Of a stretch of 64,000 bases of DNA, positions 22,579 through 52,941 are shown piece after piece. This DNA is from an uncultured Clostridia bacterium (GTDB lineage: Bacteria; Bacillota; Clostridia; Christensenellales; CAG-138): assembly GCA_947168565.1 (NCBI GenBank), contig CAMVMM010000005.1, positions 1-64,000 on the forward strand. Direction: 5' to 3'. Position numbers and translations under genes: made by a program. Position 1 is the stretch's first letter. Each line of letters starts with the position of its first letter. The notes beneath the pieces are model-generated. The model ran no database searches. It worked only from the letters and a program-made list of their open reading frames with translations, and had not been told where the DNA came from.

Positions 22579-23001
22579 ATGGAACAGAAAAAGAAAACTC
22601 TGGTCATCGGCGTCATCGGCGCGGACGTTCACGCCGTTGGCAACCAGATCCTCTACCATGCCTTTTCGGATGCGGGCTTCAACGTGATCAACCTTGGCGT
22701 TATGGTATCGCAGGAGGAGTTCATCGCCGCCGCCATCGAAACCAATGCGGACGCGATCATCGTTTCCTCCCTCTACGGCCAGGGCGAGCTGGACTGCCGC
22801 GGCCTTCGTGAAAAGTGCGATGAGGCGGGTCTTGAGAATATCCTGCTGTACGTGGGCGGCAACATCGTTATCGGCAAGCAGCCCTTCGACGAGGTTGAAA
22901 AGCGCTTCAAGGCGATGGGCTTCGACCGCTCCTTCCCTCCGGGAACCCCTCCCGAGGTGGATATAGAGGCGCTTAAAGAGGACCTGCACGTTGAGGACTG
23001 A
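22579..23001 (+). CDS. glmS: Glutamate mutase sigma (small, B12-binding) subunit
   Basis: 140 residues, the usual length. The cobalamin-binding Rossmann domain carries DVHAVGN (the DxHxxG motif whose His coordinates cobalt), then [10 protein letters not shown] and [10 protein letters not shown]. With GlmE it converts L-glutamate to (2S,3S)-3-methylaspartate through an adenosylcobalamin radical. GAGG lies 8 bases before the ATG. It is the first gene of glmS-glmL-glmE-mal. This is not glucosamine synthase and not the mismatch-repair MutS. Confidence 0.95.
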
Positions 23002-23047
23002 TCCTTCGCTTAAAGGATCGAGGCGGATTATCGCGTTTTAAATTGTT

Positions 23048-24439
23048 ATGGATCCGGTTCTGCTGATAGATTTCGGAAGTACATACACCAAGGTCACGGC
23101 CGTTGATATAGACGAGCCGCGCCTTTTGGGAACTGCAAATTCTTATACCACCGTTCAGACCGACATCAACAACGGGCTTGCCGATGCTCTTATTAAATTG
23201 GAGCAGACGACCGGCAGGCTCGATTTTTCTGCCCGTTACGCGGCTTCAAGCGCGGCGGGCGGTCTTAGGATGCTGGCGAGCGGACTTGTGCCGGAGCTTA
23301 CGGCGGAGGCGGCAAAAACGGCGAGCCTCGGCGCGGGGGCGAAGGTGCTGAAGACCTATGCCTTCAAGCTCACGGAGGACGATGCGGAGGAGATAGCAAG
23401 GCTTTCGCCGGATATTTTCCTGCTCTGCGGCGGCACGGACGGCGGCAATACCGACACCGTGATCCACAATGCCAAGGTGCTGCACAAGATCGGCGGCAGC
23501 TATCCCATAATTTACGCCGGAAACAGAAACGCCGCGCGTGAATGCGAGCGCATCCTGGAGGGCAGGGAGGTGCATATCACCGAAAACGTGATGCCTGCGT
23601 TCGGCAAGCTCAATATCGAGCCCACCCAAAAGGAGATACGCGAGGTTTTCCTTGCGCGCATTGTGCAGGCGAAGGGGCTTACGCAGGCAAGCGAGCTGAT
23701 AAGCGGCATCATGATGCCCACCCCGTCCGCAGTCATGGCGGCGATGAAGCTGCTTGCGGAGGGCACCAAAACGCAGCGCGGCATAGGCGATCTTGTGGCG
23801 GTGGACGTTGGCGGCGCAACTACCGATATCTATTCCGTTTGCGAGGGTCTGCCGGACGATCCGCGCACGAGCCTCAAGGGGCTGCCGGAGCCGTACGTCA
23901 AGCGCACCGTTGAGGGCGACATCGGCATGAGATACAGCATTCGCGGCATTGTGGACGCCGCCGGGCTGGACCGCGTTGCCAAAATAGCGGGTCTTGGCGT
24001 GGAGCGCACGGCCGAGATAATCGATATGTTTGCAAACAATACCGAGCTTTTGCCCACGGACGGCGAAACCCGGGCTGTGGACGAGGCGCTGGCGAGCATG
24101 GCGGTGCGCGTTGCCGTGAAGCGGCATGCCGGAAGGCTTGAGGAAATGTTCGGCATCGGCGGGCTGAAGCTCGTTCAAACCGGAAAGAACCTTAAAAACG
24201 TGGATAAGGTCATAGTTACGGGCGGCTCACTGATCCACACCGAGCACACGGGGCGCATTGCCTCCTACTGCTTCTACGACGAGGAGGAGGATCCCGAATC
24301 CCTCCGCCCGGAAAAGGCCGATATTTTGGTCGATCGAAGATACATCATCGCCGCGATGGGGCTTTTAAGCGAGCATCATCCGGAAGCGGCGCTCAAAATA
24401 ATGAAACAGGAGTTAGTGAAAGATGATTCTGCAAAATAA
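23048..24439 (+). CDS. glmL: GlmL/MutL, ASKHA-type glutamate mutase accessory protein
   Basis: 463 residues, close to clostridial GlmL/MutL. The actin/Hsp70-like ATPase fold is indicated by [14 protein letters not shown] near the N-terminus, LCGGTDGGN, and [13 protein letters not shown] around residue 258. Such proteins are thought to reactivate or load B12 in glutamate mutase, like diol-dehydratase reactivases. It lies between the two mutase subunits and overlaps glmE by 17 bases. It is unrelated to DNA-repair MutL. Confidence 0.93.
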
Positions 24440-25886
24440 GCGTATTCCCGACGATGAATTCAATTCAATCCGCGAGGAAGTTTTAAAGCAGTGGCCCACC
24501 GGCGCCGACGTTGATTTCAAAGAGGCGATCGAGTTCCACAAGGCTATGCCCGACCACAAGGTGTTTTCCAAAAAGCTTGTGGACGCGAAAAACAAGGGCG
24601 TTACCCTCATTCAGCCCCGCGCCGGCGTTGCTCTCATCCAGGATCAGATAGAGCTTTTGACCTATCTTCAGGATAAGGGCGAGGCGGATCTGCTGCCCAC
24701 CACCATCGACAGCTACACCCGTCAGAACCGCTATGAGGAGGCGGAGACCGGTATCCGCGAATCCATGAAGGAGCGCCGCTCCATGCTGAACGGCTTTCCC
24801 GCCGTCAATCACGGCGTGGACGGCTGCCGCAGGCTTATAAACAGCCTGGACACCCCCATTCAGGTGCGCCACGGCACTCCGGACGCAAGGCTTTTGACCG
24901 AGATCACCTACGCGGGCGGCTTCACCAGCTATGAGGGCGGCGGCATTTCCTACAACCTTCCTTACGCGAAGAACGTGCCCATGGAAAAGACCATCCGCGA
25001 CTGGCAGTATGTGGACAGGCTCACAGGCATCTATGAGGAAGCGGGCGTTTCCATCAACCGCGAGCCCTACGGCCCGCTGACCGGCACGCTCGTGCCCGCC
25101 TGCATCTCCCACGCAGTCGCCATCATAGAGGCGCTTCTTGCCGCAGAGCAGGGCGTTCGCAATATCACCGTGGGCTACGGCCAGTGCGGCAACCTCGTTC
25201 AGGACGTGGCAGCAATCCGCGTGCTGGATGAGCTTACCAATGAATACCTTGAAAAATACGGCTATAACGATGTGATCGTTACCACCGTTTTCCATCAGTG
25301 GATGGGCGGCTTCCCGCAGGATGAAGCCAAGGCCTTCGGCGTTATAAGCTGGGGCAGCGCCACCGCCGCGCTTTCCAAGGCCACCAAGGTCATAGTCAAA
25401 ACCCCTCACGAGGCGGCCGGCGTGCCCACCATGGAAGCAAACGCGCAGGGACTTCGCTGCACAAAGCAGGTCATATCCATGCTTGCCGACCAGGTCTGCA
25501 CCGCCGCGAACCTCGAGGAGGAAAAAGAGATGATCCGCCGCGAGACCCGCTGCATAGTGGATAAGTGCTTTGAGCTGGGCGACGGGGATATTGCCGCCGG
25601 CACCGTGCGCGCCGTTCTTTCCGGCGTGCTGGATATTCCGTTCGCTCCCTCGCGCTTCAACGCGGGCAAGATGCTTCCCGCGCGCGATAACGACGGCGCC
25701 ATCCGCATCTACGAGATGGGCAATCTGCCCTTCACGGAGGAGATCAAGCAGTTCCACCGCGCCAAGATCGCGGAGAGGGCGAAGGCGGAGAAGCGCAACG
25801 CCTCCTTCCAGATGGTTATCGACGACGTTTACGCCATCAGCAAGGGCAGGCTCGTGGGCCGTCCGCAGGGACTTAAAAACAGCTGA
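24423..25886 (+). CDS. glmE: Glutamate mutase epsilon (catalytic) subunit
   Basis: 487 residues, matching the family length of about 483. Conserved segments include [50 protein letters not shown] and [14 protein letters not shown], typical of the TIM-barrel subunit that binds glutamate. It pairs with GlmS to form the radical enzyme. The ATG lies inside the end of glmL, suggesting translational coupling. About 108 bases separate it from mal. Confidence 0.95.
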
Positions 25887-25994
25887 TTCGATGCGCTGTT
25901 TGAACCGGCTTTAAAGCTCGCACCTGAAGCGGCTTTTGCTTCTTCAAGGTGCGCAATTAAAGGTGCTACTAAATTTTTTAAGAGGTAAAAATAA

Positions 25995-27245
25995 ATGAAA
26001 ATCGTAGATCTTATCTGCTCCGCAGGCCGTACCGGCTTCTATTTCGACGATCAGCGCGCCATCAAGGGCGGCGCGAAGGCGGACGGCGCCGCTTACATCG
26101 GCGAGCCCAAGACGGCGGGCTTCACCTCCGTGCGCATGCCCGGCGAATCCATCTCCGTTATGCTCATCCTTGAGGACGGCCAGATCGCTTACGGCGACTG
26201 CGCGGCCGTGCAGTACAGCGGCTGCGGCGGACGCGACCCGCTGTTCCTCGCCAAGGACTTCATTCCGATCATCGAAAAGCATATCAAGCCCGCGCTCGTT
26301 GGCAAAGAGGCGGATAATTTCCGCGAGCTTTCCGCCATGCTCGAGGCCATCACCGTGGACGGCAAGCGCCTGCACACCGCCATCCGCTACGGCATGACCC
26401 AGGCCATTCTGGATGCCGTTGCAAGGAGCAAGAAGTGCATGATGTATGAGGTGGTTGCGGAGGAGTACGGCTGCAAATTCGAGGATAAGCCCCTGGATAT
26501 CTTCACCCAGTCCGGCGACGACCGCTACACCAATTCCGATAAAATGATAATCAAGGGCGCCCAGATCCTGCCCCATGCGCTTATCAACAACGTTAAAACC
26601 AAGCTCGGCGAGCATGGCGAGCTGCTGCTTGAGTACGTTAAATGGCTGCGCGACCGCGTGCTTGCGCTGCGCACCAGCGAAAGCTATAATCCCATCTTCC
26701 ATATCGACGTTTACGGCACTATCGGCGCAGCCTTCGGCAACGACAACTACAAGGCGATGGCGGATTATATGGCCACTCTTGAGGAGGCGGCAAAGCCATT
26801 CCACCTTCGCATCGAAGGCCCCATGGACGTGGAGGACCGCGAAAAGCAGATGCTCGCTCTCAAGGCGATCACCAAGGAGCTGGACGACCGCGGCATCAAC
26901 GTTGAAATAGTTGCGGACGAATGGTGCAACACGCTTGAGGATATCAAGTACTTTGCGGACAACAAGGCGGGCCACATGGTTCAGATCAAGACCCCCGACC
27001 TCGGCGGCATCAACAACACCATCGAGGCGGTGCTCTACTGCAAGGAGCGCGGCATCGGCGCCTATCAGGGCGGCACCTGCAACGAAACCGACCGCAGCGC
27101 GCAGGTTTGCGTGCAGTGCGCTATGGCGACCCGTCCCGATCAGATCCTTGCAAAGCCCGGCATGGGCGTTGACGAGGGCTACATGATCGTTTACAACGAG
27201 ATGCAGCGCATACTCGCCTACGCAAGGGCGAAGGCGGCAAAATAA
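25995..27245 (+). CDS. mal: 3-methylaspartate ammonia-lyase
   Basis: 416 residues, against about 413 in the family. Enolase-superfamily features: FHIDVYGTIG (metal-ligand Asp), EGPMDV and VADEWCNT (further metal ligands), and VQIKTPDLGG with the catalytic Lys. GRDPLF and QGGTCNETDRSAQ are also typical. It eliminates ammonia from 3-methylaspartate to give mesaconate, the substrate for the hydratase encoded at 17.3-18.7 kb. AAGAGGTAAA precedes the ATG. A terminator follows. Confidence 0.95.
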   Translation: MKIVDLICSAGRTGFYFDDQRAIKGGAKADGAAYIGEPKTAGFTSVRMPGESISVMLILEDGQIAYGDCAAVQYSGCGGRDPLFLAKDFIPIIEKHIKPALVGKEADNFRELSAMLEAITVDGKRLHTAIRYGMTQAILDAVARSKKCMMYEVVAEEYGCKFEDKPLDIFTQSGDDRYTNSDKMIIKGAQILPHALINNVKTKLGEHGELLLEYVKWLRDRVLALRTSESYNPIFHIDVYGTIGAAFGNDNYKAMADYMATLEEAAKPFHLRIEGPMDVEDREKQMLALKAITKELDDRGINVEIVADEWCNTLEDIKYFADNKAGHMVQIKTPDLGGINNTIEAVLYCKERGIGAYQGGTCNETDRSAQVCVQCAMATRPDQILAKPGMGVDEGYMIVYNEMQRILAYARAKAAK

Positions 27246-36855: not shown

Positions 36856-36868
36856 TTTGATAAACAGA

Positions 36869-36898
36869 AAAAACCGGAATCGCTCGATCCCGGTTTTT
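36869..36898. terminator. Bidirectional terminator between channel gene and rpmE
   Basis: AAAAACCGG pairs with CCGGTTTTT across a 12-base loop. A and T runs on the two sides let it serve both converging genes. Confidence 0.88.
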
Positions 36899-36910
36899 CA
36901 TTAGCAGTAA

Positions 36911-37293: not shown

Positions 37294-38115
37294 TCAGCGA
37301 AACACGCCGTGCTTTTTCTTTATTCTGCCAAGCTTATTTAAAAGCGGCTTTGTGAGCAGCAGCAGGAAAAGCACCGTTGCCGAAGCAAAAACGAGGTTTA
37401 CGGGAAGGCCCGAGGCGTACACCGCAAGAAACATCTCCCACGTCACGTTCTGTGCGGAGGAGAAAACGACCTGCGTATCCACTATCTGCCCGTAGATGCC
37501 CACCGTGACGAACGCGCCGTAGGCGCAGAGCAGAAAGAGCTTTAGTTTTGTTGTTATCTGATCGTTAAAAAGAATGCCGGAAAGAAAGCCGATAAGCCCG
37601 AGCGCAAACATCTGCCACGGCGTCCATGGCCCCTGCCCGAAAAACATATTGGACACGAAGGCGGTAAGCGCGCCGGTGATGAAGCCCGCCTCGCTCCCGA
37701 GGGAAACGCCGGTGATTATCACTATCGCGGCTATGGGCTTGAAATGGGGCAGCATGTAGAACGCGGCTCTGCCCGCAACGCCGAGCGCAACCATCACCGC
37801 GATAAGCGTCAGCTCCCTTGCCCTTGGGCGGCGCTTTTCAAACATGAAGAAGAACGGCACCATCGAAAGCGCGATTATAAGCATTGAAACTATATAAAAC
37901 TGCCGGTCGTGCCATTCAAGCAGTCCAACGAGTATCACGCTCGGCACGAACACAAGTATGAGCACGGCGGAAACGATGCGCCGTATCAGCCTGCGCTTTT
38001 TTTCCTCCGCCGCCTGCCTTGCGCGAAGCCGCTCTGCGGCGAGTACGCGCTCATCCGCCGCAGGCTCGGGCCGGGCCGCCGCGGTATTCGGTTTTTCAGC
38101 AAATTCCTTTTGCAT
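37294..38115 (-). CDS. ECF transporter S component (likely cobalamin/corrinoid)
   Basis: 273 residues. A charged, Ala/Glu/Arg-rich cytoplasmic start of about 45 residues is followed by six or seven membrane spans. ARELTLIAVMVALGVAGR and the middle segment with LGSEAGFITGALTAFVSNMFFGQG are typical ECF S-component signatures. It follows the EcfA gene by 6 bases. Its position in a cobalamin-riboswitch operon with transcobalamin-like proteins suggests it binds cobalamin or a precursor. The sequence alone would not tell the substrate. Confidence 0.85.
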   Translation of the reverse strand: MQKEFAEKPNTAAARPEPAADERVLAAERLRARQAAEEKKRRLIRRIVSAVLILVFVPSVILVGLLEWHDRQFYIVSMLIIALSMVPFFFMFEKRRPRARELTLIAVMVALGVAGRAAFYMLPHFKPIAAIVIITGVSLGSEAGFITGALTAFVSNMFFGQGPWTPWQMFALGLIGFLSGILFNDQITTKLKLFLLCAYGAFVTVGIYGQIVDTQVVFSSAQNVTWEMFLAVYASGLPVNLVFASATVLFLLLLTKPLLNKLGRIKKKHGVFR

Positions 38116-38121
38116 AAGGGT

Positions 38122-39828
38122 TTATTTACGGTTTATCCTCTCTATCAGCTCGCCTGCGGTCACCGCGCCGTCCATCATGCCCCTGCCGATCCGCGCCGCA
38201 ACGGTGGTATAGAAATTGTTTCCGGAAAGCACCTCTTTAGGCGTTCCCTCGGCAATGATCCCGCCGTCGAAAAACATGGCGAGCCTGTCCGCATATTCCG
38301 CGCAAAACTCTATATCGTGCGAGATCAGCACTATCGCCGTGCCTTGCGCGGTCAGCTTGCGAAGCAGTGCGCCGAATTTCACCTTGAAAAAGGCGTCCAT
38401 GCCCTTTGTGGCTTCATCAAGAAACAGGATGCGCGGCTCCAAAACAAGCAGCTTGGCAATGGCCGCGCGCTGAAGCTCGCCGCCGCTTATATCGTATGGA
38501 TTGCTTTCCAAAATGCCGGAAAGCTCCATCAATTCAGCTATTTCATCAAGCCTGCTTTTATCAAGCTTATTCTTTTTGATCACCGCCTCAAGCTCCTCGC
38601 GCACGCTGTCGTGAACGAAGCTGAGTATCGGGTTTTGCAGCAGCACGCCCACGCGCCGTCCGAAAAGCTCCCCGTCCGAATACTTATCTATCGGCTTGCC
38701 GTCGAGCAGCACCCTGCCGCGATAGGGCTTGAGCATTCCGGAGGCGGTCATCACGGCGGTGGTCTTGCCCGCGCCGTTGCCGCCGATTATGCACGTCAGC
38801 TCGCCCGCGTTTATTTCGAGCGAGGCGCCCTTTAAAATGTCGTCCGAATTTCGCTCGTAGCGAAACCACACGTCGCGCATGGAGATAACGGGCTTTTCGG
38901 AGCGCTTGCTTTTCTGCGCTTTTTCGCGGGGGCGGGCGGGGGAAGGCGCAGCGGCCTGCGGCAAGGCTTTTTTCGCTGCGGCTGTTTTTTCCTCAAGTAT
39001 TCGCTTCAGATACGCCCTGCCATCGCGCACGGTGATGGGGGCGGGCAGGTCCTTCATGCTTTCGGTGCGGGTTTCGTAATAAACGGTCATAGCCGTGGGC
39101 AGCACGGCGGAAAGCGCGGGGTCGCGGCTCAAAAGCTCCGCGCAGCTTTCGGGCGTTCCGCTGTGGAGTATGCCGCCGTTTCGCATGAAAACGACCTTGT
39201 CCGCAATAGGAAACAGTCCCTCAACGCGGTGCTCGGTGATCATCACGGTGGTGCCAAGCTCGCTGTTTATGCGCTTGAGCGTGTCAAAAAAATCGGCGGC
39301 GGCGATGGGATCGAGCTGCGAGGTGGGCTCGTCCAGTATCAAAAGCCGGGGCTGCATCACCATCACTGAGGCAAGGCAGAGCAGCTGCTTCTGCCCGCCG
39401 GAAAGCTCCGAAACGGGGGAGTGGAACCATTTTTGAATGCCGAAAAAATTCGCCATTTCGGCAACGCGGACGCGCATCGTGCTTTGATCCACGCCAAGGC
39501 TCTCAAGCCCGAAGGCAAGCTCGTGCCACACCTTATCGGTGGCTATCTGCATCTCCGGATCCTGCATCACAAAGCCTATCTCGGAGGTTTGACGGCGAAG
39601 ATCCAGCGCTTCAACGGGCTCCCCGCCGAAGAGCACCGCGCCGCTGACGCTGCCAAAGGAGCTGAGGGCGGGCTTGAGCATCCGAAGCAGGGTGGATTTG
39701 CCGCAGCCGGAGGGGCCGGCGATAAGCACAAATTCCCCCTCCGAAACGGAGAGGTCTATATTCAAAAGCGCGGCCTTATCCGCCTCGGGATATGTAAACG
39801 TCAGATCCTTGATCTCAACAAGTGCCAT
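38122..39828 (-). CDS. Double ATPase of an ECF transporter (EcfA-EcfA' fusion)
   Basis: 568 residues with two ABC ATPase domains. The first has Walker A GPSGCGKST (about 39), LSGGQKQLL and LLILDEPTS. A Pro/Lys/Ala linker spans about 270-320. The second has GGNGAGKTT, ISGGELQRA and ILFLDEATKG. One chain thus supplies both ATPases that energise EcfT and the S component. It overlaps the EcfT gene by 28 bases and precedes the S gene. Part of the riboswitch-led operon. Confidence 0.94.
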   Translation of the reverse strand: MALVEIKDLTFTYPEADKAALLNIDLSVSEGEFVLIAGPSGCGKSTLLRMLKPALSSFGSVSGAVLFGGEPVEALDLRRQTSEIGFVMQDPEMQIATDKVWHELAFGLESLGVDQSTMRVRVAEMANFFGIQKWFHSPVSELSGGQKQLLCLASVMVMQPRLLILDEPTSQLDPIAAADFFDTLKRINSELGTTVMITEHRVEGLFPIADKVVFMRNGGILHSGTPESCAELLSRDPALSAVLPTAMTVYYETRTESMKDLPAPITVRDGRAYLKRILEEKTAAAKKALPQAAAPSPARPREKAQKSKRSEKPVISMRDVWFRYERNSDDILKGASLEINAGELTCIIGGNGAGKTTAVMTASGMLKPYRGRVLLDGKPIDKYSDGELFGRRVGVLLQNPILSFVHDSVREELEAVIKKNKLDKSRLDEIAELMELSGILESNPYDISGGELQRAAIAKLLVLEPRILFLDEATKGMDAFFKVKFGALLRKLTAQGTAIVLISHDIEFCAEYADRLAMFFDGGIIAEGTPKEVLSGNNFYTTVAARIGRGMMDGAVTAGELIERINRK

Positions 39829-40688
39829 CTGTATGCCTCAATGGAATTCATCATCACGGGTATGAGCAGCGTTAGCGCGTAGATAACGCAAAACGCTATA
39901 AAAAGCGGGGTTGCTTCGTTTGCCTTATACGAGGGAAAGAAGCGTATGCCAATAAGCTTGAAGTAGGAGGCAAGCGCGGTGCAGAGCATTCCAAGCGCGA
40001 GCAGCCCGCCCACAAGCGCATCCCTGCCGTCGAAGCGGTAGTTTGCAAAGCTCCTGCGCGGGTGCAGCCCATACCCCCTTGAGCGCATTGAATCGGCGGT
40101 GGTAACGGAGCTTTCAAGCGCCCAGGTGATGAGCGATGAGAGAATGCTCAGCCCGTTTCGCGCCCGCGCAAGGATGCTTCCGCCGCGGGTACCCATTCCC
40201 GCTCCGCGCTGCGCCTGCGCTATGCGCTTTGCCTGGTGCGAAAACAGCGGCACAAAGCGGAGCGCCATGGATAAAACGAGCGAGAGGGAGGGGGCGAACC
40301 TGCCGAGCAGGTAAACTATCTTGTCGCTTGTGAATATGGCGTTGAAGCAGGCGAACCACAGCACCACCGAAGCGAGCATTCCGGCGGAAGCGACGCCGTA
40401 CACAATGGATTCAAGCGTTATGGGGTTATGCCTTAAATAAAAAAGGATGGTGACGCCGGCATGGTTGAAAAGGGGATTCATCACGGCGGTGAGCAGCATT
40501 ACGGGCAGCGCAAATTTGAGTATATAGCCCCATGCCCTTTTGCCGCGAAGAATGAAAAGCCATGCGAGCGCGCACGCAAGGGATATGCCCAAAAGAACCG
40601 GATGCATCACAAGCATCGGCATGATGAGCGCGAACGCAAAGAATACGAACGCAACTATTGGGTTTACCGTGTCAAACGCATCGCGCAT
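39801..40688 (-). CDS. ecfT: ECF transporter transmembrane protein EcfT
   Basis: 295 residues, four or five membrane spans and a long cytoplasmic coupling loop. The coupling helices carry AQRGAGMGTRGG and ADSMRSRGYG, the Ala-Arg-Gly type motifs that dock to the two ATPase domains. It links ATP hydrolysis to toppling of the S component. It lies between the DUF4430 lipoprotein and the double ATPase, with an overlapping stop. Confidence 0.92.
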   Translation of the reverse strand: MRDAFDTVNPIVAFVFFAFALIMPMLVMHPVLLGISLACALAWLFILRGKRAWGYILKFALPVMLLTAVMNPLFNHAGVTILFYLRHNPITLESIVYGVASAGMLASVVLWFACFNAIFTSDKIVYLLGRFAPSLSLVLSMALRFVPLFSHQAKRIAQAQRGAGMGTRGGSILARARNGLSILSSLITWALESSVTTADSMRSRGYGLHPRRSFANYRFDGRDALVGGLLALGMLCTALASYFKLIGIRFFPSYKANEATPLFIAFCVIYALTLLIPVMMNSIEAYRWHLLRSRI

Positions 40689-40705
40689 AACGAGCTTTTA
40701 AAGAA

Positions 40706-41338
40706 TCAGGGATTCGGGGTCTGCCCCGCAATGAAATAGCTGCCGACATCCGCGCCGAAATCGCAGGTGTAATGCCACTCCACCGCGTCGCCGTCCTTTA
40801 AAATATACTTGCTGCAGCCGTAATTCGGAAAAGCGCCGTTCACGGAAAAGGTCCAGCCGCTGCCCTCGCCGCAGTCGAATTCATAAAGATTGTTTATGCC
40901 CTCCACGTACGCGCTGTCGTAAACAGGGGTATAGGAGTATTCCATGTGGATCTTGCGGCTCTTAAGAGTGCGCACCATCATATCGTAAACGCTTTCGCCC
41001 TGCTTGAAGCTGACCGTGCATTTTTCAAGCACTATGCCGTTTTCGGGCAGCACGTCCAGCTTATCGGTGTTGAATTTATCCATATTGTTCAGTATGGTGG
41101 TGCATTCGATATAGAGCGTGCAGGAAAGCTCCTCGTCCGCTCCCGAAGAAGGAGAGGCCGAGGGTAATGGGGATGAGCCTTGATTTTCGCCGTTTTTTAC
41201 GCCGCAGGCGAAGGAAAGGGATGCGGCAAGCAGCACAAGGCATAAAAAACAAAGCAGCATTGGTCTGCCGTGGGCAGTACCGACGCTTGCCTTGCGATTG
41301 GTTTTATTTTCAGCAGATGAACGAGTAAATTTTATCAT
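40706..41338 (-). CDS. DUF4430 lipoprotein (transcobalamin C-terminal-like domain)
   Basis: 210 residues if started at ATG 41338. The signal region ends in lipobox LSFAC. A Ser/Pro linker precedes a single DUF4430 domain with the hallmark GWTFSVNGAFPNYGCSKY and DGDAVEWHYTCD. DUF4430 corresponds to the beta domain of intrinsic factor and transcobalamin. As a lipoprotein it would be held at the membrane next to the ECF transporter. No good Shine-Dalgarno is seen at 41338, so the exact start is uncertain. Confidence 0.85.
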   Translation of the reverse strand: MIKFTRSSAENKTNRKASVGTAHGRPMLLCFLCLVLLAASLSFACGVKNGENQGSSPLPSASPSSGADEELSCTLYIECTTILNNMDKFNTDKLDVLPENGIVLEKCTVSFKQGESVYDMMVRTLKSRKIHMEYSYTPVYDSAYVEGINNLYEFDCGEGSGWTFSVNGAFPNYGCSKYILKDGDAVEWHYTCDFGADVGSYFIAGQTPNP

Positions 41339-41414
41339 AAACAGAAATAATTCGCAGCAGCTTTCTTTGAGCGGAGGATGAGCGCTGCTTTGCTCACCCT
41401 CCGCGGATAATTCG

Positions 41415-43064
41415 TTACTGATCGCGCTTGCGCGAGGATATGATAAGGAAGATGCCCGCCACAAGCAGTATGCCGCCTATGCCCACGGGAATGAGCCACT
41501 TCAGCTTCTCTCTGCGGATGCTGTTGTTGCCCTTCCAGTCGCTGCCGGTGATATCGATCGGATCGAAGGTCACGTCGGGCACCTCGGTAGGCTCGGGAGT
41601 GTCCGCAGGCGGTGTATCCGCGGGATCCGGCGTTTCGGTGGGCTCGGGAGTATCGGAAACCTCGGGGGTGGGCTCCTCGGTAGGCTCGTCCGAAAGCTCC
41701 GGAGTCACGCTCGGCTCCTCGGTGAGCTCGGGAGTGGGGTCATCGGTAGGGATGCCGGTTGGAATATCGGTCGGAATATCGGTTGGCGCGTCGCTGGGTA
41801 TGGACGCAGTGGGCGTCGGAGTGGGACGCGGCGTGGGCGTCGGAGTGGGACGCGGAGTAGGCGTCGGGGTGGGACGCGGCGTGGGCGTCGGAGTGGGACG
41901 CGGCGTAGGCGTCGGAGTCGGACGCGGCGTAGGCGTCGGGGTGGGACGCGGCGTAGGCGACGGCGTAGGCGTCGGAGTGGGCGTCGGGGTGGGACGCGGT
42001 GTAGGCGTCGGCGTGGGCTCGGGAGTGGGCGTTGGAGGCATGGTGATCGGCGGTTCGATCGGAGAATGGCTGAAATCAACGTCGTTCATATTGAAAAGCG
42101 TGTTGCGGCCGCGCAGGAATCTGTCGTAAGCGCAAAGCGCATACGCCGCCTGCTCGCTCGCCATGCCGTTCACTACGCCGCCAATCGTGTGTGAAAAGCC
42201 GGTTCCCGTGAAGAAGGAGAGAAGCGCATCCACAACCGATTTGCCATTTTTTGTGAATCTTGAATCGCTGCCGGCGTCTATATTCATGGCGCTGAGGGCA
42301 ACCATCACCTGAGAGCAGCTTTCGGAGCAGGCGGTGCCGAAGCTTGAAAAGCCTCCGTTCGCATCCTGCATTTCGGACAGAATGCGAATGCCCCTGTTCA
42401 CGGCGTCACGCGCGGCGGAATAATTCGCAAGCGCGGTGATCGCCATCGCGGTCACGTCCGGATCGGGATTGTTTCCCGCAAGCGCCCAGCCGCCGCCGGG
42501 GATCTCACGCTCAAGAATAAAATCGATGCACCGGGTCTTAAGGGAGCTCATGCCGTAGGCGCTGTTTGAATTGAGCGCGATCAAAGCGAAGATCGCACCG
42601 TTTATGCCCTGACGCCTGACGTAATCAAAATCGGAAAGCGGGTAGGTAAGATCGTACCCCGCAACGCTGCGCGCATCGCGGCCGATGGAGGTAAGCGCTA
42701 TGATAACGCGCGAATTTTCGGTGGATTTGGTGGAATCAAGCCTGCCGGAGCCCGCTTCGCGCACCATGCGCTCGATCTGGGAATAATAGGCGGAAGCATA
42801 GTTGCTGTCCGGCTGAAGCCTGCCGCTTCTTGCAAGGGCAAACACCTTCCACTCGCCGCCGATGCTTCCGTACACGGGCGCGCCGCTCGAATAGAGGTAG
42901 TTCAAAACGCTGTTGTACTGCTGGGTGTATGATACTGCTATGGACTCCTGCGCGCTTTCGGCCCGAACCGCGGTTGAAAAGGGTGCGGCGGCAATAAACA
43001 ATGCCAGCAAAAGCGGCAGCGCGCGGGTGAATACAGCTCCGAGTTTATGTATGATGCGTTTCAA
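41415..43064 (-). CDS. Membrane-anchored alpha/alpha-toroid protein (intrinsic-factor alpha-like)
   Basis: 549 residues. A signal peptide (1-34) is followed by an alpha/alpha-toroid of the prenyltransferase/squalene-cyclase superfamily (about 45-330). Repeats include GGGWALAGNNPDPDVTAMAITAL and DANGGFSSFGT...CSQVMVAL (fragments). A long PT/PR-rich spacer lies at about 345-420, then an acidic TDIP/TPEPTE region. One membrane span near the C-terminus ends in SSRKRDQ; no LPxTG. The toroid matches the alpha domain of cobalamin-binding intrinsic factor/transcobalamin. GAGGTGG precedes the ATG. Confidence 0.85.
   Translation of the reverse strand: MKRIIHKLGAVFTRALPLLLALFIAAAPFSTAVRAESAQESIAVSYTQQYNSVLNYLYSSGAPVYGSIGGEWKVFALARSGRLQPDSNYASAYYSQIERMVREAGSGRLDSTKSTENSRVIIALTSIGRDARSVAGYDLTYPLSDFDYVRRQGINGAIFALIALNSNSAYGMSSLKTRCIDFILEREIPGGGWALAGNNPDPDVTAMAITALANYSAARDAVNRGIRILSEMQDANGGFSSFGTACSESCSQVMVALSAMNIDAGSDSRFTKNGKSVVDALLSFFTGTGFSHTIGGVVNGMASEQAAYALCAYDRFLRGRNTLFNMNDVDFSHSPIEPPITMPPTPTPEPTPTPTPRPTPTPTPTPTPSPTPRPTPTPTPRPTPTPTPRPTPTPTPRPTPTPTPRPTPTPTPRPTPTPTASIPSDAPTDIPTDIPTGIPTDDPTPELTEEPSVTPELSDEPTEEPTPEVSDTPEPTETPDPADTPPADTPEPTEVPDVTFDPIDITGSDWKGNNSIRREKLKWLIPVGIGGILLVAGIFLIISSRKRDQ
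41808..42040 (-). repeat. 24-bp repeats encoding the PTPTPTPR spacer
   Basis: About nine imperfect copies of a 24-base unit (plus strand GGCGTAGGCGTCGGAGTGGG and similar). They encode an extended Pro/Thr/Arg stalk that would lift the toroid away from the membrane through the cell wall. The opposite strand reads as a false Gly/Val open frame. Confidence 0.9.
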
Positions 43065-43174
43065 ATTATTCCACCTCGTGAGTTAAAAAGTATTTACCGA
43101 ACCGGTCGGGGGAGGAAGCTGCGAATCCCCCCGGCGGCCCTCATGGGACAGCCGGGGAGCGAAGAATACGGTTT

Positions 43175-44212
43175 TTATGCAAGGTTGAGCGCTATGCGCA
43201 TGGCAAGCAGCGCGTCGTAGGTAAGCACGCTGCCGTCGCCGTTCACGTCCGCAGATTCAAGCGCATCGCCCTCAAGCAGCTCGGTGCCCATTGAATGGCG
43301 CAGGATGGCAAGCGCGTCGCTGATGGTAACGCTGCCGCTGCCGTCCACGTCGCCGGGAAGCGCGCCGCCGGAAAGAGCGGCGATAAGCGCGTCAAGCGCC
43401 TCGTCGATGGCGGTCTGATCGCTTGAAAGATCGGTCACCACATCCATAAAAGCGTTATAGGCCTCGTTTGCGGTGCCGCCCACATCAACCTTGGCGGCAA
43501 GCTCGGGGTCTGCGGCGATCTCGGCAAGAAGTGCGCTCGCCGCATCGCGGTCAACGCCGAAGGAGGGGTTATCGAAGGGAGCGAACATACCCCAGCCGTC
43601 GTTGATGCCGATGTCCATGCCCCAGCCGTAGATGGAGTACATCCAGCGGTAAACGTGGCCGTCCTCAACGGTAACGCCGTCCGCGCCAACGCTGGCGGAT
43701 ACATTGTTGTCCACGAACATCCAGCCGGAATAATAGGTGTATTCCTGCTGAGAAAGGATGCCGTCGCCGTTTTCGGGGTTGTACCAGCCGTCGCCGTCGT
43801 CGTTGTAGCAGCCGTAGTTGTTTTCAAGCTCGGGAGCGAGATAGTCGGGAACCACGATCTCCGCGCCGCTTGCAAGCTGCTCGCACTCGATGCCGTTGAG
43901 GTAGAAGCCGTACTGGCTGTTCTGATAGTCGCCGCCAACGCCGGCGGTCTCAAGCAGGCGAATGGTTACGTCCGCAACGGTTTCGCCGCTGCGATAGGGC
44001 ACGAGGGTGGGCTCGACGACATAGCCCCAGCCGAGCACGAACGCCTCGAAATCGACCACAACGAAGCCGTCGTAGCCTTCGGGAACTTCGGGAGAGGCGA
44101 GGGGAGCATCAGCAGAGATGCGGGGAGCCCCGGCGGAAACGCTGCCGAAGGCAAGGCTGAGAAGGAGCGCCGCGCAAAGAAGCATGGCAAAGAGTTTTTT
44201 GTAGAGTTTCAT
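43175..44212 (-). CDS. Secreted DUF4430-dockerin protein
   Basis: 345 residues. Signal peptide (1-27), DUF4430 domain (about 35-190, with SGETVADVTIRLLETAG, YGFYLNGIEC and YSGWMFVDNN), a helical linker, and a type I dockerin at the C-terminus. The dockerin has two Ca2+-binding loops, GDVDGSGSVTISDALAI and ADVNGDGSVLTYDALLA. The ATG at 44212 has GGAGG 10 bases upstream. It is the first gene after the cobalamin riboswitch. The dockerin should hold it to a cohesin-bearing surface protein not found in this window. A corrinoid-binding role is inferred from DUF4430 and the riboswitch. Confidence 0.9.
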   Translation of the reverse strand: MKLYKKLFAMLLCAALLLSLAFGSVSAGAPRISADAPLASPEVPEGYDGFVVVDFEAFVLGWGYVVEPTLVPYRSGETVADVTIRLLETAGVGGDYQNSQYGFYLNGIECEQLASGAEIVVPDYLAPELENNYGCYNDDGDGWYNPENGDGILSQQEYTYYSGWMFVDNNVSASVGADGVTVEDGHVYRWMYSIYGWGMDIGINDGWGMFAPFDNPSFGVDRDAASALLAEIAADPELAAKVDVGGTANEAYNAFMDVVTDLSSDQTAIDEALDALIAALSGGALPGDVDGSGSVTISDALAILRHSMGTELLEGDALESADVNGDGSVLTYDALLAMRIALNLA

Positions 44213-44359
44213 TTTACAGTACCTCCGTGTATTTTCTTTGGGGTCTACAAGCCCCATGCGGCAATACGGAAGCACTGCGTCTTGGCGCGGAAGCTCGGCA
44301 AAACCGAGCCGGCGCCGCTCAAACAAGCCGCTTCTTCCCGAAAGCCGCCTTGACAGGGT

Positions 44360-44559
44360 GATACGGCAGGTCTCCTGGCTTGCGGATAAGCCTAATCGCC
44401 CCGCCTTCCCATGCAAAAAGCAAAGTGGCGGTATGGGGCTTTCGTGACCGGTTACAGTAGCGGGGTCTGCTGCGGATTCGCACCGCATTCCCTATTGACC
44501 CGCGGAGAATGATTTGATATTACATCATATCGAATCAAAAACCGCATTGGGACCGTATC
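44360..44559 (-). promoter_or_regulatory. Cobalamin riboswitch
   Basis: Minus strand. The B12-box AAGCCAGGAGACCTGCC lies at 44381-44365. Core elements GGGAATGCGGTGCGAATCCGC, CCGCTACTGTAACCGG and CGCCACT are clear. A closing P1 stem pairs GATACGG (44559-44553) with CCGTATC (44366-44360). Binding of cobalamin normally switches off the downstream genes. No T-run is seen before the ATG at 44212, so control could be at translation; this is not decided. Confidence 0.95.
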
Positions 44560-44578
44560 TGCCTATTCAATTAACCTG

Positions 44579-44607
44579 AGTATAGCAAAACGGCGGCAGT
44601 TTGTCAA
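44579..44607 (-). promoter_or_regulatory. Promoter of the riboswitch-led operon
   Basis: Minus strand: consensus -35 TTGACA (44607-44602), a 17-base spacer, -10 TATACT (44584-44579). Confidence 0.9.
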
Positions 44608-45323: not shown

Positions 45324-46535
45324 ATGGGTAAATTCGATAATAAACGCGTTTGCGCGATCCTTCTTGCCGCAGGCGGCTCCACCCGCATGGGCGAAAACAA
45401 GATGCTTATGCGCTTTAGCGGCAAAACGCCCATTGAGCTTTGCCTTGAAGCGTTCAGGGAGCATGCGGACGAATTCGTGATAGTGGTTTCGCCCTCAACC
45501 GCCGAAGCCGCTCAGGAGGCGGCACAAAGAGCATTGGGCGAAGGGGGCGCGGTAAAGCTTGTGTACGGCGGCGAAAGGCGGCAGGATTCGGTATACAACG
45601 CGCTTGTGTCTACCGAGGCGGATATAGTTTCGATCCACGATTGCGCGCGCTGCTGCGTTTCACAAGACGTTATAGAAAAAAGCATATTTTCCGCTGTGGA
45701 ATACGGCAGCGGCATCGCCTCCGTGAAGGTGGTGGACACGCTTAGAAGCGCCGCAGAGCAGCAGATAGTGGACAGGGATTCGCTGCTTGCCGCGCAAACG
45801 CCGCAGAGCTTTTCCCGCAGCGGCATTTTGAGCGCATACGAGAAGATCGATGGTGGAATTACCTATACCGATGATGCCGCAATTTTCAAATCGGCGGGAA
45901 ACGAGCTGCATTTCAGCGAGGGCGACAGGGCAAATATCAAGCTTACGGGCAGGGAGGATATAATCATTATGAAAGCTTTGCTTGAACAGCTACGGCAGGA
46001 CGCTTCGGAAAAAACGAACGCCGAAATGAAAAACAGCGCCTGTGCGCACGACCTCATGCCGTTTCGGATCGGATTTGGGGAGGATACCCACAGGCTGAAG
46101 GAGGGCAGGGCGCTGATACTCGGCGGGGTGCATGTGCCGTATGAATTCGGGCTGGACGGGCATTCGGATGCGGACGCGCTTGCGCACGCGCTGATCGACG
46201 CGGTGCTCGGCGCCTGCGCGCTGGGCGATATAGGAATGCACTTTCCGGACAGCGATCAAAGGTATAAGGGTATAGACAGCCTTTTGCTTGCCTCGCACAC
46301 GGCGGCGCTTGTGCGCGAAAGGGGCTTTGAGATAGGCAATCTGGACGCAACGGTGATCGCGCAGAGGCCCAAGCTCGGCGCGTATCGGGATGAGATGCGC
46401 AAAAGGCTTGCCGAGGCGTTCGGCGTCGATTTTTCCCGCATGAGCGTTAAGTTCACCACTCCGGAGCATACCGGACCCGAGGGCAGGGGGGAGAGCATGA
46501 CCGTTCGCGCCGCCGCGCTCGTGTTTGAAAAATAA
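45324..46535 (+). CDS. ispDF: Bifunctional IspD-IspF isoprenoid enzyme
   Basis: 403 residues. The N-terminal half (1-225) is IspD, with AAGGSTRMGENKMLM binding CTP and HDCARCCVS. The C-terminal half (about 240-403) is IspF, starting RIGFGEDTHRL, with GLDGHSDADALAHALIDA, GDIGMHFPDSD and the FTTPEHTG end. It makes 4-CDP-methylerythritol and 2-C-methylerythritol 2,4-cyclodiphosphate in the MEP pathway, skipping only the IspE step between. Fused IspDF proteins are known in several lineages. Confidence 0.96.
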   Translation: MGKFDNKRVCAILLAAGGSTRMGENKMLMRFSGKTPIELCLEAFREHADEFVIVVSPSTAEAAQEAAQRALGEGGAVKLVYGGERRQDSVYNALVSTEADIVSIHDCARCCVSQDVIEKSIFSAVEYGSGIASVKVVDTLRSAAEQQIVDRDSLLAAQTPQSFSRSGILSAYEKIDGGITYTDDAAIFKSAGNELHFSEGDRANIKLTGREDIIIMKALLEQLRQDASEKTNAEMKNSACAHDLMPFRIGFGEDTHRLKEGRALILGGVHVPYEFGLDGHSDADALAHALIDAVLGACALGDIGMHFPDSDQRYKGIDSLLLASHTAALVRERGFEIGNLDATVIAQRPKLGAYRDEMRKRLAEAFGVDFSRMSVKFTTPEHTGPEGRGESMTVRAAALVFEK

Positions 46536-46673
46536 GGGCGCTTATTAAAAACATACAGCTTTATACGGCTTTTTGAAATACAGAATCGCAAGGTAAACCC
46601 GCGTAAAACTAAACAAAAGGAAGAAAAAGCAAGGTAAAGCATAATAAAATAAAAAAGTAAATTAAAGTAAAGC

Positions 46674-46752
46674 TCAACAAAACAAAGCAAAACAAAGCAA
46701 AGCAAAACAAAGCAAAGCAAAGCAAAACAAAGCAAAGCAAAACAAAGCAAAG
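46674..46752 (+). repeat. T-free AAAGC/AAAAC pentamer array
   Basis: About 75 bases made almost only of AAAGC and AAAAC pentamers, with no T on the plus strand. It lies just before the terminator, in the 3' untranslated region of ispDF. The flanking 46610-46670 bases are similarly A-rich but contain some T. Confidence 0.9.
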
Positions 46753-52709: not shown

Positions 52710-52941
52710 CCTCGTTGAGTTTTTTGGCCTGAAACCGGCTGACCTGGTCTTTGACCCCACACTCGCCTGTTGGAGGGTTCGCTACTAAGCCTTACGCTGC
52801 CCACTACTGCCCCTCTCGGGCGATGCCCGACAGGACTTACGTCTAAGCCGCACCATGCTCACGGGGGCTTTGCCCCGCTTATGTGGATCGTTTCGCCTGC
52901 GACTGGCATCGATTTTCAACCACAGACCCGATTTCCGTGCC
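52710..52941 (-). ncRNA. Structured RNA leader, raiA-motif-like (class tentative)
   Basis: About 230 bases on the minus strand between a good promoter and the zinc-ribbon gene, with no reading frame. Hairpins include GGGGCAAAGCCCC, CGGGCATCGCCCG and GGTCAAAGACC, the last in a very conserved-looking stretch GGGGTCAAAGACCAGGTCAG. A repeated GGCTTAG with GTAAG/GTAAGG flanks suggests tertiary contacts. From memory it resembles the raiA RNA of Firmicutes; HEARO/omega RNA is a weaker alternative since no IscB gene is present. Class needs a covariance search. Confidence 0.55.

Follow-up and report, generated by a model that had tools for sequence, protein, structure and literature searches.

A riboswitch-linked operon from a relative of Clostridia with a probable role in surface capture and ECF-mediated import of corrinoids

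Bacteroides capture vitamin B12 with outer-membrane lipoproteins, and extracellular B12 capture by Gram-positive gut bacteria is, to our knowledge, poorly known. We examined a 64,000-nucleotide stretch of contig CAMVMM010000005.1 (the window), which comes from a bacterium with its nearest relatives in Clostridia and holds, on the minus strand from 44607 to 37294, a six-gene operon led by a cobalamin riboswitch. The operon encodes two DUF4430 proteins, an alpha/alpha toroid protein and an energy-coupling factor (ECF) importer. We read it as a corrinoid (B12) acquisition operon that combines surface capture with handover to this dedicated importer, and we put the probability of this reading at roughly 0.77.

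Among the closest described systems is that of Burroughs et al. 2007 (PMC1796856). Burroughs et al. reported bacterial SLBB proteins of the transcobalamin clade in CbiO/CbiQ operons and proposed that they scavenge B12. These proteins have an extracellular transcobalamin-like beta-grasp domain, frequently accompanied by a toroid and another paralogue, and their hosts usually lack key B12 biosynthesis genes (PMC1796856). The window likewise encodes an extracellular transcobalamin-like protein and a toroid beside CbiO/CbiQ genes; since the capture idea was already predicted in 2007, its operon is a variant of the predicted kind. It differs in having the alpha and beta modules as separate genes, one of them with a dockerin, and a CbrT-like S component. 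It is under a riboswitch, whereas the word "riboswitch" is absent from the main text of the 2007 paper, and its host appears to retain cbi genes. No experimental test of the 2007 idea was found in the literature searched, which lacked most subscription papers, so binding studies may exist; the same literature yielded no match for transcobalamin-like proteins in bacteria together with a riboswitch.

The mammalian carriers intrinsic factor, transcobalamin and haptocorrin share with the operon the fold of the beta domain, the pairing of a toroid with a beta domain, and a DxTAMA-type segment that falls in register through a bridging subfamily. They are single soluble chains taken up by an endocytic receptor, whereas the window encodes two or three proteins, attached to membrane or scaffold, that would deliver to an ECF importer. 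The third system, ECF-CbrT (PDB 6FNP), imports cobalamin and cobinamide and also joins a CbrT-kind S component with EcfT and EcfA/EcfA' (PMC5997447); the window differs from it in that the EcfA pair is fused, capture proteins stand outside the cell and the motor is a dedicated one in the same operon, while in L. delbrueckii one motor is common to eight predicted S components (PMC5997447). What is new here is the riboswitch statistics with their control, the CbrT kinship of two S-component families, the split form with a dockerin, the small units and the PF01122 bridge, all described below.

The original prediction of a cobalamin riboswitch with a consensus promoter ahead of six co-directional genes was borne out. 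A sigma-70-type promoter, TTGACA-17-TATACT, lies at 44579..44607 (minus strand, as are all operon features below) and agrees with the consensus at 11 of 12 bases. The leader aptamer at 44357..44562 scored 114.9 bits (E 4.6e-28) against RF00174, well over the curated cut-off of 31.5, and the open reading frame list gives six minus-strand frames downstream of it. In the minimum free energy (MFE) fold of the leader, a strong predicted hairpin at 44217..44278 sequesters the Shine-Dalgarno sequence of gene 1; therefore, the switch probably works on translation, and this hairpin, as seen in one MFE fold, is the probable expression platform. The EcfT and EcfA frames overlap, and gaps of 6 bases and 17 bases separate EcfA from the S gene and gene 3 from EcfT, respectively. 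A terminator-like hairpin with 14 pairs and a T-rich tail, a match to the consensus only, follows gene 6 at 36868..36899.

The linkage of DUF4430 to the cobalamin riboswitch was counted in 200 genomes of the order, among which 62 have DUF4430, at 83 places in total, and at least 127 have cobalamin riboswitches. The adjacency counts are lower bounds, the places are not phylogenetically independent, and many of the genomes are metagenome-assembled. At least 44 of the 83 places, from at least 31 genomes, have a cobalamin riboswitch no more than 10 kb upstream on the same strand, compared to about 0.15 expected, and at least 17 lie within 1 kb; among the riboswitches listed, none of the 83 places was within 10 kb in another orientation. 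The same count with the thiamine pyrophosphate (TPP) riboswitch as a control gave at least one of 83 downstream and at least three pairs in another orientation. The clustering is far beyond chance, and a general neighbourhood effect of riboswitches was rejected on the TPP control.

The last three genes encode an EcfT, a double EcfA and an S component, as had been predicted, and together they supply the set of components of a CbrT-type ECF transporter. Gene 4 (39801..40688) is an EcfT of the CbiQ family (PF02361, 8.5e-9) and gene 5 (38122..39828) is a fused double EcfA ATPase with two ABC domains (TIGR04520, 4e-97). Gene 6 (37294..38115) matched two ECF S families above the Pfam cut-offs, the riboflavin-named PF07155 (45.9 bits) and PF12822, and an NCBIfam folate-type S model under its cut-off (27.2 bits). 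When the profile of gene 6's own family (A3, 19 sequences) was searched against all PDB sequences, 6fnp_A came first (E 8.8e-18) and 4hzu_S next (E 1.1e-3), and no other S component was returned at E <= 1. Chain A of 6fnp, with 182 residues, is taken as CbrT from its length alone. By this profile comparison, the S component of gene 6 appears closer to CbrT than to the other solved S components.

Scanning genome contigs with A3 yielded at least 590 confirmed S-component relatives, and the loci of the best 80 were analysed. EcfA was present in all 80 and EcfT in 75, DUF4430 was found on either side of the S gene in 64 (60 when only the upstream side is counted), and a toroid was found in 53. An upstream B12 box was detected in 26 of the 80 loci and a box elsewhere in 7, by a scan that recovered 18 of 20 known riboswitches. 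Where at least 9 kb of upstream sequence was available (52 loci), DUF4430 lay upstream in 44 and the toroid in 39, eight loci had no upstream DUF4430, and in 40 the DUF4430 domain ended no more than 600 bases from EcfT. DUF4430 and ECF genes stand side by side in Christensenellaceae (L081, L082), Oscillospiraceae (L091, L106), Blautia (L124, L127) and Paenibacillus (L115, L132). The DUF4430-EcfT-EcfA-S order was also seen in L116 (JAITCR010000088.1), in a bin labelled as a Nitrososphaerota archaeon, which is probably a misbinned Bacillota contig. BtuG is a beta-propeller B12 binder of Bacteroides. In L055, the toroid's usual place before DUF4430-EcfT-EcfA-S is occupied by a 462-residue beta-propeller protein (L055:2115-3503; PQQ_2, E 4.7e-7).

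Gene 3 (40706..41464; start uncertain, with ATG 41338 possible) encodes a DUF4430 protein (5.3e-19). In a fold search, its DUF4430 domain (40709..41134) gave matches specific to cobalamin carriers, plus a single protein of R. gnavus, and by fold it is supported as a transcobalamin-type beta-grasp domain of the cobalamin carrier family, as had been proposed for the beta half. The prediction that gene 3 encodes a DUF4430 lipoprotein held for the domain and not for the lipobox, which by eye is non-canonical; a lipobox-like motif is present in 11 of 21 DUF4430 proteins from relatives and the own genome. The protein is probably surface-anchored. Gene 1 (43175..44212, 345 aa) starts at ATG 44212 behind the Shine-Dalgarno sequence GGAGG, and encodes a secreted protein with a signal peptide, a DUF4430-like domain and a C-terminal type I dockerin. 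Of its predicted DUF4430-dockerin architecture the dockerin was confirmed (Dockerin_1, 8.2e-10), while the DUF4430 match of 22.9 bits is slightly below the Pfam cut-off of 23.8. The genome contains 23 cohesin matches, 11 of them inside a single 2299-residue frame (C15:49317-55418, L170), with further cohesin loci on contigs C10 (L169) and C3 (L171); therefore, a scaffold for the gene-1 dockerin exists. This scaffold is cellulosome-like, and a B12-capturing dockerin protein could sit there. A third, small DUF4430 protein of 175 aa, lipoprotein-like, is found at C3:124858-124998 (L005, L038) on a contig without a cobalamin riboswitch, and is possibly a binder of another ligand or a spare one.

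Gene 2 (41415..43064, 549 aa) starts with TTG 43064 behind the Shine-Dalgarno sequence GAGGTGG and encodes a signal peptide and a toroid, followed, as read by eye, by a stalk rich in Pro and Thr and a hydrophobic segment at the C-terminus. The toroid and DUF4430 stand on separate genes, which agrees with the claim that the two carrier halves exist here as separate proteins. For the toroid domain (42090..42959), the AlphaFold2 (AF2) model has a predicted local distance difference test score (pLDDT) of 91.0 and a predicted template modelling score (pTM) of 0.91, and the model and the fold search support the toroid fold. The proposal that this toroid is the transcobalamin alpha half has the toroid fold in its favour, but Pfam gave no PF01122 match (the eukaryotic cobalamin-binding alpha domain) and terpene cyclases match best. 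Its sequence matched SQHop_cyclase_C below the cut-off (9e-5; 22 bits, cut-off 26.1) and, weakly, the SCO2321 family membrane protein (NF053823; E 3.9e-9, 35.9 bits, cut-off 300 bits), a name under which the literature search gave nothing evidently related. Transcobalamin and intrinsic factor are absent among the 50 toroid fold-search matches listed, an absence that does not exclude them. Sequence searches of the PDB with gene 2, gene 3, the profiles A1, A2 and A4 and the L106 protein returned no cobalamin carrier among the matches listed.

A possible link between the window toroid and the mammalian alpha domain was found through sister toroids. Among 70 toroids, the window toroid and 69 from the best 80 loci, four matched PF01122 at E <= 0.1 when cut out as domains, those of L154 (27.7 bits), L121 (25.6), L150 (21.7) and L159 (19.4), with a cut-off of 25. 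The whole proteins scored lower, at 24.2 bits for L154 (E 1.9e-5), 22.5 for L121 (E 6.6e-5) and 19.4 for L150 (E 5.8e-4), and the L159 whole protein gave no PF01122 match at E <= 0.001. Because the whole-protein scores are below the cut-off, the match is close to Pfam's line rather than clearly over it. All four toroids lie in operons with DUF4430, EcfT, EcfA and S, and a B12 box was found upstream of L121 only. The bridging subfamily (A6) comprises six toroids, all in proteins with SLH domains, and its profile was, among the matches listed, the only one to retrieve a cobalamin carrier from the PDB by sequence, weakly but first (intrinsic factor top, E 0.0067; haptocorrin next, E 0.18). Aligned by hhalign with the family of the window toroid (A1), it gave a probability of 99.6% (E 9.7e-25) over 232 columns. 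Through A6, the window segment DPDVTAMAITAL and haptocorrin's VDTGAMA fall into register, which upholds the segment's noted likeness to the VDTAAMAGLA region of transcobalamin, and the second Asp of this segment is retained in 67 of the 70 toroids.

Toroid followed by beta domain on one polypeptide, the layout of the mammalian carriers, is not found in the window and is found in relatives. Twenty frames, one each in 20 of the 80 loci, hold both domains; in L063, one frame of the order set, the toroid is followed by two hydrophobic segments (by eye) and DUF4430. In an uncultured Oscillospiraceae, the 458-residue frame L106:2541-3914 has a lipobox-like start, a toroid at residues 49-321 and DUF4430 at 325-456 and lies directly 5' of EcfT, an intrinsic-factor layout in a probable lipoprotein. 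Surface proteins of about 2000-2300 residues with DUF4430 and a toroid are encoded at L045:3431-10360, L058:7162-13170 and L059:6980-12967; the L058 protein, the only one of these scanned, has GLUG repeats.

Smaller units were also found. Among 17 listed DUF4430 places less than 1 kb from a cobalamin riboswitch, a small CbrT-like membrane protein comes next in 11 cases, about 0.5 kb away or less and with no toroid between (L068, L069, L071-L076 and L164-L166; the DUF4430 of L165 is sub-threshold at 20.4 bits). In three others (the window, L057, L060), DUF4430 belongs to the first gene of a complete operon, that of L070 is followed by EcfT, and in L053 and L065 neither a small S protein nor EcfT follows, L053 having EcfT and S on the opposite strand. 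The small S genes are partly missed by simple frame calling and were recovered by six-frame translation. Five of the proteins were scanned and gave no Pfam match and one weak, uninformative NCBIfam match; their profile matched 6fnp_A alone in the PDB at E <= 1 (1.4e-15). They may use a shared motor encoded elsewhere.

Zebrafish B12-binding proteins were reportedly described by Benoit et al. in 2018. On its own, the human beta domain is able to bind cobalamin (PMC5599065), binding in transcobalamin starts at the beta domain, onto which the alpha domain subsequently closes (PMC11107200), and short teleost relatives consist of the DUF4430 part only (PMC4350170). On the simplest reading, scarce adenosylcobalamin would let the riboswitch permit expression of the operon. 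The DUF4430 domain of gene 3, anchored on the outward side of the cell membrane, would take the corrinoid first, as the mammalian beta domain does, and the toroid of gene 2, on its stalk and membrane anchor, would close over it as the alpha domain does. The DUF4430-dockerin protein of gene 1 may capture corrinoid at a greater distance from the membrane, perhaps while docked on cohesin scaffolds. The captured corrinoid would then pass to the CbrT-like S component, with import driven by the operon's own EcfT/EcfA-EcfA motor. Because DUF4430-S pairs exist, the beta domain is suggested as the part that interacts with the S component and the toroid as an optional clamp. A wider reading, which we rate at a little under even odds, is an external relay in which a beta domain of the transcobalamin type, with or without a clamping toroid, loads a CbrT-like S component. 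Its forms would range from the riboswitch-controlled DUF4430 and CbrT-like S pair to a bacterial counterpart of intrinsic factor, split or fused, that some species mount on cohesin scaffolds or S-layer domains, and animal B12 carriers would derive from a family whose bacterial side is the SLH-bearing toroids. Its odds were lowered slightly because the whole-protein PF01122 scores fall just under the cut-off. If the reading of the operon as a corrinoid acquisition system is right, animals and bacteria have a two-part B12 carrier design in common, an ECF importer acquires a binding-protein step, and the 2007 prediction can be put to a direct test, using small soluble domains and the B12 switch that the operon itself carries.

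Several points count against the original interpretation or weaken it. The best fold matches of the window toroid are terpene cyclases and not intrinsic factor, and it has no PF01122 match; the best S families of gene 6 are named for riboflavin in Pfam and folate in NCBIfam; cbi genes, CobS and two BtuC-like permeases are also in the genome; and the general idea was already published in 2007 (PMC1796856). The original prediction of a Gram-positive functional analogue of the mammalian carriers is partly supported overall.

The importer might carry cobalamin while toroid and DUF4430 bind something else, such as wall sugars or a host or partner protein, and only hold the importer or tether the cell. 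Such a role would fit the toroid's nearest folds, which are enzymes of terpenes and sugars, the fact that relatives of genes 1 and 2 carry modules of the dockerin, SLH and GLUG kinds, and the operons that lack the toroid, DUF4430 or both. We consider it unlikely in view of the fold match of DUF4430 specific to cobalamin carriers, the PF01122 matches of sister toroids, and the 11 riboswitch-proximal places where a CbrT-like S protein comes after DUF4430 with no toroid between. To a similar degree, it is improbable that the substrate is a corrinoid precursor, an incomplete corrinoid or cobalt instead of cobalamin itself. Cobalamin riboswitches also control a cobalt importer, cbiMNQO of C. difficile (PMC11477304), CbrT also takes cobinamide (PMC5997447), and the cbi genes and CobS could complete a salvaged corrinoid. 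Against this, the S component is CbrT-like, cobalt would presumably require no carrier of the transcobalamin kind, and EcfT, although in the CbiQ family, scored 21.5 on the cobalt equivalog, far below its cut-off of 111.8; a cobalt importer was rejected as the principal reading on the EcfT score and the S component. DxDD is the acid motif of squalene-hopene type cyclases. That the toroid is a terpene-cyclase-like or glycosidase-like enzyme and not a binder half is very improbable, given its extracellular position with stalk and membrane segment, the toroid-DUF4430 fusions, and the DxDD motif, which is absent from the window toroid and from all six of the bridging subfamily and occurs anywhere in 2 of 70 toroids.

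Judged by its gene content, the bacterium that carries the proposed B12 operon has a corrinoid demand and additional corrinoid routes, in contrast to the auxotrophs expected in 2007. The glutamate mutase system is an adenosylcobalamin enzyme, and a GlmS-GlmL-GlmE operon with methylaspartate ammonia-lyase lies in the window at 22579-27245 (plus strand); PF02310 occurs at three places in the genome, including GlmS. Contig C28 has two divergent cobalamin riboswitches. To one side of them lie cbi genes and a BtuC-like permease; the other side has a CbiK-like protein, a binding protein and another BtuC-family permease (best model an F420-0 permease, BtuC second). There, CbiF scored over its cut-off, CbiK and the permeases under theirs, and the remaining cbi names come from reading only. 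The CbiK (sirohydrochlorin cobaltochelatase) homologue, L037:9299-10522, scored 249.5 bits against a cut-off of 400, has a lipoprotein-like signal and lies 3' of a cobalamin riboswitch. CobS is encoded on contig C26. With cbi genes, CobS and BtuC-like permeases in the genome, the ECF importer is therefore not the sole corrinoid route. Elsewhere in the window, a raiA RNA was found at 52730-52936 (minus strand, 198.9 bits), and the minus-strand translation of a simple-sequence tract at about 46530-46750, between two gene clusters, consists of LLCF repeats.

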